The notes beneath the pieces were generated by a model, which saw only the letters and a program-made list of their open reading frames with translations, ran no database searches and was not told where the DNA came from. From Pelagibacteraceae bacterium AG-447-N18 (GTDB lineage: Bacteria > Pseudomonadota > Alphaproteobacteria > Pelagibacterales > Pelagibacteraceae): a DNA stretch of 64,000 bases. A program made the translations under genes and the position numbers. Shown here one piece after another: positions 38,110-41,304 of the stretch (within the stretch, counting starts at the first letter, position 1; each line of letters opens with the position of its first letter). The stretch lies in NCBI GenBank assembly GCA_003212275.1, contig QCQE01000003.1, forward strand, positions 1 to 64,000. Direction: 5' to 3'.

Positions 38110-38436
38110 ATGACATATATAGTTAATGACAAATGCATTAAATGTAAATTAATGGATTGTGTTGAAGTATGCCCTGTTGATTGTTTCTATGAGGGAAAAA
38201 ATATGCTTGTAATTAAACCTGATGAGTGTATAGATTGTGGCGTTTGTGAGCCTGAGTGTCCTGTTGATGCAATAAAAGCTGATACAGAGCCAGGATCTGA
38301 AAAGTGGCTAGAAATCAATAAACAATATTCAGAAATCTGGCCAAATATAACAGTTAAGAAAGATCCTCCATCGGATCACGAAAAATATAAAGATGAGCAA
38401 AATAAGTTTGAAAAGTATTTTAAAGAAAACCTTTAA
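38110..38436 (+). CDS. fdxA: 7Fe-type ferredoxin (FdxA family)
   Basis: [18 protein letters not shown] and [16 protein letters not shown]. Confidence 0.92.
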
Positions 38437-39265
38437 AAAAAGTAAAGCTACTAAATCAAAAAAAAAGGTAAAACCCAAAAAGGTTGTTCAATTAAAAAAA
38501 GTAAAAAAGAAAATTAGTAAATTACCAAAAAAATTAATTAAAACTAAAAAAGTACCTTCAAAAAAATCTATAAAATCTGAAGTCAAAACTACAGAGCAGA
38601 AAAGTGATAGTTTAAGAATTACAAAAAGTAATGAAGCTAAACCAGAAATTAAAAAAGTAAAAAAACAAGCAACAGAAAAAAGAGAATATAAAATCAAAGA
38701 TTACGTCGTATACCCAAAACACGGCGTTGGGCAAATTACCGAATTTAAAAAAATAAATATTGGAGGAATAGACGTTGAAACGTACGTTATAAAATTTGAA
38801 AAAGATAAAGCAAATGGAATGGTGCCTGTTAACAAGCAATTACACTTAAGACCATTAGCTACTATTAATCAGGTAAACAAATGCATCTCAATATTAAAAA
38901 GTAAACCTAAAATAAAAAGATCCATGTGGAGTAGGAGAGCACAAGAGTATGAAGCAAAGATTTCGTCAGGTAAAATTTATGAGTTAGCTGAAGTAGTAAG
39001 AGATCTTAATAAGGGGGATGATTTGATGGTCGACCAATCTTATAGTGAAAGACAATTATTTGAAAAAGCATATGAAAGAATTCTTTCAGAATTTCAAATA
39101 ATTCTAAATCTATCATTAGAGGATACTCAAAAAAAATTAGATAAAGCTTTAAAAAGAAACTTAAATACTCAACCTAAATCAGAAGCAACACCAATGAAGC
39201 AAGCTTCATCAGATTTGCCTGAAGAAGAGGCTGTTTCAGAAAATGAGGAAGATATAGAGGATTAA
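38393..39265 (+). CDS. carD: CarD-family transcriptional regulator with Lys-rich N-terminal extension
   Basis: CarD domain from about residue 97 ([26 protein letters not shown]...[28 protein letters not shown]); preceded by a Lys/Ser-rich tail; overlaps fdxA by 44 nt if this start is used. Confidence 0.88.
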
Positions 39266-39270
39266 AAAAA

Positions 39271-39310
39271 AACGCCTCTCACACGTAAATCGTTATGAGA
39301 AGCGTTTTTA
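39271..39310. terminator. bidirectional Rho-independent terminator between carD and the microprotein gene
   Basis: aacgcctctca ... tgagaagcgtttttaa; T run on the plus strand, A run (T run on the minus strand) before the 5' arm. Confidence 0.85.
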
Positions 39311-39328: not shown

Positions 39329-39406
39329 TTATCTTCTTCTTCTTTTTTTAGCTTTTTTCTTAGCTTTTTTCTTAGCCTTCTTTGCTTTTTTTCTTCTCTT
39401 AGGCAT
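39329..39406 (-). CDS. 25-aa ultra-basic microprotein MPKRRKKAKKAKKKAKKKAKKRRRR
   Basis: ATG..TAA on the minus strand; GGGAG Shine-Dalgarno 6 nt upstream of ATG; promoter-like elements upstream and a terminator downstream; below the ORF-track cutoff. Confidence 0.75.
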   Translation of the reverse strand: MPKRRKKAKKAKKKAKKKAKKRRRR

Positions 39407-39430
39407 CTTTAGCTCCCTTTTTAAGTTAAA

Positions 39431-39446
39431 CGAATCAATTGATTCG
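39431..39446. promoter_or_regulatory. 16-bp perfect palindrome cgaatcaattgattcg in the microprotein leader
   Basis: Sequence equals its own reverse complement; lies between the predicted start of transcription and the RBS. Confidence 0.7.
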
Positions 39447-39457
39447 CTATTAATCTA

Positions 39458-39486
39458 TTTTTATTTTTTTATGTGCCTTATGTCAA
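39458..39486 (-). promoter_or_regulatory. sigma70-like promoter for the microprotein gene
   Basis: On the minus strand TTGACA (39486-39481), 17-nt spacer, TAAAAA (39463-39458). Confidence 0.6.
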
Positions 39487-39606: not shown

Positions 39607-41304
39607 TTAATAAAGTTTTTCTAAATCTTCTTTATATTTTTCTAGAATTTTTTTTCTTTTTAGTTTTAAAGTTGGTGTTAACATTCCATTTTCAATTGTA
39701 AATTCTTTTTCAATTAATTTAATTTTTTTTACTCTTTCAACAAGAGATAAGCTTTTATTTAGATCATCTATATATAATTCAATTTCTTTTTTATTTTTTT
39801 CACTATCACTTACAATTAAAGCAACTAAATATGTTTTTTTGTCTCCATAAACAAAACTTTGTTTAATTTTTTCATCAAGACACAATAAATTTTCAATTTT
39901 TGAGGGTGAAATGTTGTCACCACCAGAATTTACAATAATTTCTTTTTTTCTGTCAGTAATTTTCAAATTTCCTTCTTTTGTAATTTCACCTATATCTCCT
40001 GTGTGTAACCAACCATTTTTAAGTATATCGTCTGTTTCCTTTTTCATGTTCCAATAACCAAGCATGACATTTTCACCTTTAACCAGAATTTCACCGTCCT
40101 GTGCAATCTTCACCTCATTAGTTTTAAAAGGAGGTCCAACTGTATCAATCTTGATTTTTTCAGGTATATTGCAACTTACTACTGGGGATGCTTCTGTAAG
40201 TCCATAACCTTGCAAAGTTGGCAGTCCGATAGAATTCAAAAATTCACCAATTTTTTGATCTAAAGCACCCCCTCCAGAAACAAAAGCCTTTAAATTTCCA
40301 CCAAACTGATTTTTGATTTTTCGTCTTACTAATTTTTCACATAAATAATTTAATATATTTTCTATATAGCTCATATTCTCATTATTTAGTTTTTTTATTC
40401 CAAGCGAAATCGTTGAGGATATTAATTGTTTCTTGAGACCTGTTTGCTTTGAAAAATTAATCGAAATCTTGCTATACAAATTTTGATAAAATCTAGGTAC
40501 AGCAGTCATTATAGTTGGTTTAGCAACTGCGATATTAGATAATAATTTTTCTAAACTTTCAGCATAATAAATTTTTGCTCCTAATGTGATTTGTACAAAT
40601 TGAACAGCATGTTCATATGAATGAGATAAAGGTAGCCAAGTCAAAAATACAGGTTCACTATCTTTAACTAACGAATTCAAAATTTCTTGCGCACCTTCAC
40701 AATTAGATAAAATACCCCCATGACTCAGCATTACACCTTTTGGGTTACCAGTTGTTCCTGATGTGTAAATGATACAAGCGAGATCTTTTCTCTCAATATT
40801 TTGGTTAAAGCTTAAATGATCTAAAGTTTTTTCTTTATAAAATTTTTCAAAAATATTTTCTATACTATCAATTTGGTTATCTATATTTTCTATTGATAAT
40901 ATTTTTATCTTATCTGTAATGAATTTATCTATTTTTTTTAATTGAATATTATTTGAGACAATACAAATTTTTGGATTACAATCATTTATGATATATTCAT
41001 AATCTTTTTCAGAGTAAGTTGTAAATAAAGGAACTGTTACCCCACCAGCGTTCATTATAGCGATATCAGAGATAAGCCATTCAGGTCGATTTTCAGATAA
41101 TAATATGCATCTATCCCCTTTAGATAAATTTTTTCTTAAATATTCAGATAAAATTTGAATATTTTTTTCAACTTGTTTCCAAGTTATAAAATCTCCCTTA
41201 TTATCTTTTAACCACTTTAAAAATGGTTTCTCCGAAGTAGATTTTACCTCTTCATATTTCGTGAAAAAAAGTTCTACTAAACTGTTAATTTTACTTAATT
41301 CCAT
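39607..41304 (-). CDS. Long-chain acyl-CoA synthetase (AMP-binding)
   Basis: IIYTSGTTGNPKGVMLSHGG, LQGYGLTEASPVVS, GWLHTGDIGEITKEGNLKITDRKKEIIVNSGGDNISP. Confidence 0.92.
   Translation of the reverse strand: MELSKINSLVELFFTKYEEVKSTSEKPFLKWLKDNKGDFITWKQVEKNIQILSEYLRKNLSKGDRCILLSENRPEWLISDIAIMNAGGVTVPLFTTYSEKDYEYIINDCNPKICIVSNNIQLKKIDKFITDKIKILSIENIDNQIDSIENIFEKFYKEKTLDHLSFNQNIERKDLACIIYTSGTTGNPKGVMLSHGGILSNCEGAQEILNSLVKDSEPVFLTWLPLSHSYEHAVQFVQITLGAKIYYAESLEKLLSNIAVAKPTIMTAVPRFYQNLYSKISINFSKQTGLKKQLISSTISLGIKKLNNENMSYIENILNYLCEKLVRRKIKNQFGGNLKAFVSGGGALDQKIGEFLNSIGLPTLQGYGLTEASPVVSCNIPEKIKIDTVGPPFKTNEVKIAQDGEILVKGENVMLGYWNMKKETDDILKNGWLHTGDIGEITKEGNLKITDRKKEIIVNSGGDNISPSKIENLLCLDEKIKQSFVYGDKKTYLVALIVSDSEKNKKEIELYIDDLNKSLSLVERVKKIKLIEKEFTIENGMLTPTLKLKRKKILEKYKEDLEKLY

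Follow-up and report, generated by a model that had tools for sequence, protein, structure and literature searches.

Between carD and a gene of the acyl-CoA ligase type, the analysed DNA (hereafter the window, positions 1-64000, 64 kb) leaves a gap of 341 bp, which an earlier note on the same DNA had put at about 340 bp. On the minus strand of this gap lies an ORF whose 25-residue translation (window 39329-39406) is Lys or Arg at 19 of 25 positions, exactly as that note had described it, and the GGGAG it had placed 6 nt from the ATG is found at 39413-39417. The locus comprises the following elements.

38393..39265, plus strand: carD, convergent neighbour and synteny anchor (Pfam PF21095 and PF02559; convergent in 160/160 informative loci)
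about 39268..39309, no strand assigned: inverted repeat between the carD and microprotein stop codons, a probable bidirectional terminator (from sequence; hairpins with T-runs in relatives)
39329..39406, minus strand: microprotein ORF, 25 aa, MPKRRKKAKKAKKKAKKKAKKRRRR (translation; conserved, length changes being in frame and substitutions falling at third positions)
39405..39417, minus strand: GGGAGCUAAAGAU, complementary at every base to the 13-nt apical loop of rhtB, RF01814 (loop comparison; sub-threshold rhtB match on the window's opposite strand)
39413..39417, minus strand: Shine-Dalgarno sequence GGGAG, 6 nt 5′ of the microprotein ATG (from sequence)
39431..39446, no strand assigned: palindrome CGAATCAATTGATTCG, with the extended GANTC site TGATTCG once on either strand (unique in the genome; in the mRNA, a stem close to the inferred 5′ end)
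39457..39462, minus strand: candidate −10 box AAAAAT, its exact position uncertain in an A-rich stretch (from sequence)
39481..39486, minus strand: promoter −35 box TTGACA (from sequence; TTGAC leads CGAATC by 39-42 nt in 157/157 loci)
39607..41304, minus strand: AMP-binding gene (acyl-CoA ligase type), upstream co-directional neighbour (Pfam PF00501; co-directional in 138/138 loci)

Within the window, the microprotein is the sole ATG ORF of 20-99 aa with a K+R fraction of at least 0.45, and ORFs with a fraction of at least 0.6 numbered zero across 40 simulated 64-kb sequences under a first-order Markov null. The terminator that had been attributed to the gene is the inverted repeat at 39268..39309; an automatic scan of the window did not flag it, but relatives have clear ACGC...GCGTTTTTT hairpins 3′ of the ORF.

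CarD itself carries a Lys-rich N-terminal extension of ~95 residues (window 38393-38680, plus strand), preceding its RNA-polymerase-interaction domain, and a single carD from another part of the class (L095) likewise shows, upstream, a stretch rich in Lys and Ala. On contig C11 of the same genome, a 418-aa protein (L002 685-1941, plus strand) combines a secretion-type N-terminus with a long Lys/Ala repeat tail, and its DNA is similar to the microprotein gene by composition.

Conservation of the microprotein gene in SAR11

Loci were sampled with CarD as the anchor, which is independent of the microprotein ORF. Across two families of the order, the microprotein was present in 54 of 56 CarD-anchored SAR11 loci, the other two stopping at contig edges. 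In the same genus the ORF lies at the same place in 30/30 loci; outside the genus, in six further genera of its family and in a second SAR11 family, 24/26 loci have it, the remainder being those contig edges. Additional loci were obtained by a start-site pattern, a sample biased toward that pattern yet in agreement, and the named matches it returned all belong to Pelagibacteraceae, Pelagibacterales or Candidatus Pelagibacter. Taking both sources together, the ORF is intact in 162 of the 166 loci examined, the four exceptions being the rhtB sRNA locus discussed below (L066), two contig ends (L091 and L092) and one locus truncated where its retrieved stretch stops (L168).

The length of the microprotein ranges from 21 to 99 aa, and every length change is in frame. 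Within the 25-aa class, 17 DNA alleles have 1, 0 and 7 variable codon sites at positions 1, 2 and 3, respectively, with a pN/pS of 0.058; since the alleles are related, both the site counts and the ratio are descriptive. The Shine-Dalgarno stretch is similarly stable, reading GGGAGCTAAAG in 29/30 of the unbiased same-genus loci and GGGAGTTAAAG in 1/30. Of the checks that the earlier note had called for, those on sequence come out in favour of its proposal of a real but unlisted gene: in ~160 loci the ORF is intact, with no frameshift, lost ATG or lost Shine-Dalgarno sequence, synteny with both carD and the ligase gene is kept throughout, and substitutions are biased to third positions. On this sequence evidence, the microprotein ORF is a genuine gene, and a core gene of SAR11 (Pelagibacterales).

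Beyond the order, 40 loci from 40 families elsewhere in Alphaproteobacteria yielded no convincing homologue beside carD. A class-wide search with an 85-aa form missed genomes known to carry the gene and is hence uninformative. Neither the microprotein start context nor the rhtB sRNA was found in viral contigs or phages.

The promoter and its GANTC element

The promoter-like site, TTGACA-18-AAAAAT, spans 39486-39457. In AT-rich DNA, chance alone is expected to produce matches of this kind; the stronger evidence that the gene has its own promoter is that TTGAC is conserved across the order. In each of the 157 loci that reach far enough upstream, CGAATC follows TTGAC by 39-42 nt, extended to CGAATCA in 156 of them; these seven bases are invariant in 25 representatives spanning genera, and 95/157 loci have the motif in both orientations, forming a palindrome. 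Read on the other strand, CGAATCA is TGATTCG, the extended GANTC motif which, when methylated, has been proposed to serve GcrA activation in Caulobacter (PMC7987155). Within the 64-kb window TGATTCG occurs only at the microprotein promoter palindrome, GANTC as a whole being depleted there (111 found against ~190 expected from dinucleotide shuffles), and no copies of the promoter architecture were found elsewhere in the same genome.

Both putative regulators are encoded in the genome: GcrA (PF07750 above the Pfam cut-off) and a CcrM-like methyltransferase ORF of 370 aa with a RAMA domain (PF18755 above cut-off). A CcrM homologue has been reported in SAR11 (PMC3973325); on the other side of the balance, a published survey of Ca. 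P. ubique found that probable targets of GcrA are few. From its sequence elements, the microprotein promoter looks like the carrier of a cell-cycle methylation switch. The same CGAATCA stretch also folds as a short stem close to where the mRNA is inferred to begin, making its DNA and RNA roles inseparable here. This stem shows some compensatory changes (C-G or T-A at the eighth position, A-T or T-A at the ninth, G-C or G-T at the second) and beat shuffles in most representatives, not all. The conservation of CGAATCA could also reflect its hairpin.

The start site and the rhtB sRNA

The pattern match at L066 proved to be the rhtB sRNA (RF01814, 74.9 bits). The 13 nt of its apical loop, AUCUUUAGCUCCC, are complementary to GGGAGCUAAAGAU, the stretch of the microprotein mRNA that runs from the Shine-Dalgarno sequence to the start, and the Rfam consensus has the same letters. 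In this genome, GGGAGCTAAAG stands ahead of the start codon of the microprotein only. The 14-nt exact match between rhtB and the microprotein mRNA is the longest found in the genome, and in a ranking of duplexes with rhtB the microprotein mRNA reaches −31.3 kcal/mol, the next of 1,062 other ORFs reaching −24.2 kcal/mol. In relatives whose second codon is GCT (MAK start), the duplexes with rhtB reach −38 to −41 kcal/mol. At codon 2, which pairs to the inner stem of rhtB, no co-variation was seen among five near-identical sRNAs, none of which comes from a genome with an altered Shine-Dalgarno sequence (e.g., L022).

The sRNA was found in five relatives' genomes, all of which also carry the microprotein gene; at least six U residues follow the hairpin in four, and one hairpin folds at −17.9 kcal/mol (z −5.6). 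With exact matches in five of some 200 sampled Pelagibacter genomes, rhtB is accessory and the microprotein gene core. The hairpins (L066 1467-1547, minus strand; L279, L280, L281 and L282) lie beside a small conserved gene, which we take to be of the TIGR03643 type. In this assembly, a model search did not find rhtB; the best matches (E 0.002 and 0.1) were rejected as ordinary terminators, hairpins lacking the loop. In the syntenic region, the usual neighbour gene of rhtB is here abruptly fused, through a short word common to both sides, to ABC-transporter sequence (contig C11, L317 17760-17950), a junction that represents either a deletion or an assembly/amplification chimera removing the rhtB region; loss of rhtB is therefore indistinguishable from an assembly fault.

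Meyer et al. described the rhtB motif in 2009, on the basis of about 1,250 sequences from metagenomes, and gave no target for it (PMC2704228); searches of the literature found none either. The supplement of that paper may mention the present ORF among misannotated ORFs. In lineages with rhtB, the loop would probably pair with the Shine-Dalgarno-to-start stretch and repress translation of the microprotein. The invariant GcrA/CcrM-like promoter element and this antisense sRNA, both recognized from sequence, are what the present analysis adds to the earlier note.

Other lineages have leader structures of their own. In family f2 (L082-L090), a second small hairpin adjoins the Shine-Dalgarno sequence, with CCC/GGG changed to CGC/GCG in L084, and in genus g4 (L075-L078) a CUCC stretch can pair with GGAG. 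Translational autoregulation by these leaders is possible.

Protein character, probable function and likeness to known systems

Pfam, NCBIfam and the Protein Data Bank held no match to the microprotein, and family profiles gave none up to E 1-10, a weak negative, as low-complexity queries are poorly handled by profile searches. The claim that the microprotein is without recognisable homology nevertheless has to be given up, because its longer orthologues are recognisable as Lys/Ala/Pro-repeat proteins with a composition like that of histone H1 tails: 76-99 aa in family f2 (e.g., MEELKVIFAKARKKAKKKAAPKKKRKAAKRKPAKKK...) and 37-58 aa in genus g4. These long forms are ~50% Lys, 25% Ala and 7-9% Pro. 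Pelagibacter forms retain the Lys/Arg/Ala core alone, with little Pro, at protamine size (21-32 aa). Of the two likenesses suggested previously, that to histone tails agrees with the composition of the f2 and g4 orthologues; that to Thx is not favoured, given the 21-99 aa range and the lack of a family match. A helical periodicity of Ala (P 0.012 in the 25-mer, a weak P 0.037 in a 30-mer) was dropped as a feature, not being significant in other variants. Complete tryptic cleavage of the 25-aa form leaves peptides of 3 aa at most, so absence from proteomes would be expected.

The best explanation, to which we give about an even chance, is a cell-cycle-timed, sRNA-restrained nucleic-acid binder of the H1-tail or protamine kind. 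The microprotein would be a disordered, phosphate-backbone-binding chain, built like the C-terminal tail of histone H1. It would most likely bind the chromosome non-specifically and help compact or organise the nucleoid, as a supplement to ordinary nucleoid proteins, given that the genome already has three HU/IHF-family genes, a point that also weighs against this reading. TTGAC and the invariant extended GANTC site 39-42 nt on make it probable that GcrA activates transcription on CcrM-methylated DNA, thereby tying expression to chromosome replication. We infer translation, DNA binding, cell-cycle timing and rhtB repression from these sequence features; nucleic-acid binding in particular, which would be electrostatic, is suggested by composition and by analogy with Hc2, BpH1 and AlgP. 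The full proposal, that of a SAR11 chromatin peptide, an H1 tail at protamine size whose transcription is set by GcrA/CcrM methylation and whose translation is shut off by rhtB in some lineages, is offered tentatively, its probability lying somewhat short of even.

Composition by itself does not decide between DNA, RNA and polyphosphate as the target. A general polyanion binder, whose main target would be RNA or polyphosphate (in dampening translation, in condensates or in granules) rather than chromatin, has precedents in Hc2, which binds RNA and represses translation (PMC2848022), and in AlgP, an organiser of polyphosphate granules that carries an H1-like tail (PMC9239181); the replication-linked element in the promoter speaks instead for a role at the chromosome, and we regard this alternative as rather unlikely. 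Doubtful, too, is a lineage-specific basic ribosomal peptide of the bTHX/bL37 size class, threading into rRNA. Size and charge would fit, as would the strong Shine-Dalgarno sequence, the gene's own promoter and the structured leader of some genera, a feature common among ribosomal protein genes. Yet a length that varies by repeats is at odds with ribosomal proteins fitted to a fixed cavity, the gene lies outside ribosomal operons, neither a bTHX, bS22 or bL37 profile match (nor any other in Pfam or NCBIfam) nor a fixed-length conserved sequence was found, and the promoter element suggests cell-cycle rather than growth-rate control. That the short, low-complexity, AT-rich ORF is not a protein gene at all is highly improbable: the kept frame, frame-preserving length changes and third-position substitutions, together with the zero count of the Markov null, argue against a chance ORF, the codon-position pattern and in-frame indels rule out a structured RNA in place of protein (Rfam matches being below threshold only), and a leader peptide is ruled out, as nothing but carD antisense lies downstream in the ORF's direction.

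SAR11 are among the sea's most numerous bacteria and have minimal genomes, in which this core gene, matching no Pfam or NCBIfam family, was missed by standard annotation and is nearly invisible to tryptic proteomics. Should the microprotein prove to be a peptide of chromatin, it would mark how far an H1-like protein can shrink, and SAR11 would gain a conserved candidate GcrA/CcrM target. Independent of that reading, the rhtB sRNA, so far without a known role, gains a testable target.

Among known systems, ribosomal bTHX, bL37 and bS22 are likewise very short and very basic, but the microprotein is variable in length, has no family match and conserves Ala as its only non-basic residue. Sperm protamines are similar to it in size and share its extreme basic charge; the microprotein is Lys-rich, not Arg-rich, lacks Cys, and is, so far as one can judge, no homologue of theirs. 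The conserved 13-nt rhtB loop (PMC2704228) is exactly antisense to the microprotein start, but belongs to a gene of its own, located elsewhere in a small number of related genomes, with no reported target. With promoters under GcrA/CcrM control in Alphaproteobacteria, the gene has in common TGATTCG, the extended GANTC motif, within its promoter region and a genome that encodes both regulators; the present site is putative, known from sequence, and lies ~40 nt downstream as counted from where the −35 box starts. Bacterial H1-like proteins (chlamydial Hc1/Hc2, Bordetella BpH1, and the AlgP and PhaF tails) differ in that the Pelagibacter forms are far shorter, have a higher K+R fraction and lack a separate folded domain and a Pfam match, for which reason membership in this family is not assigned, and DNA binding is putative here. 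What the microprotein shares with them is a Lys/Ala/Pro-rich, low-complexity chain, in the f2 and g4 orthologues, and a length that varies in frame with repeat number (PMC2848022, PMC9239181), as in the DNA-binding Hc2 and BpH1 (PMC2848022).
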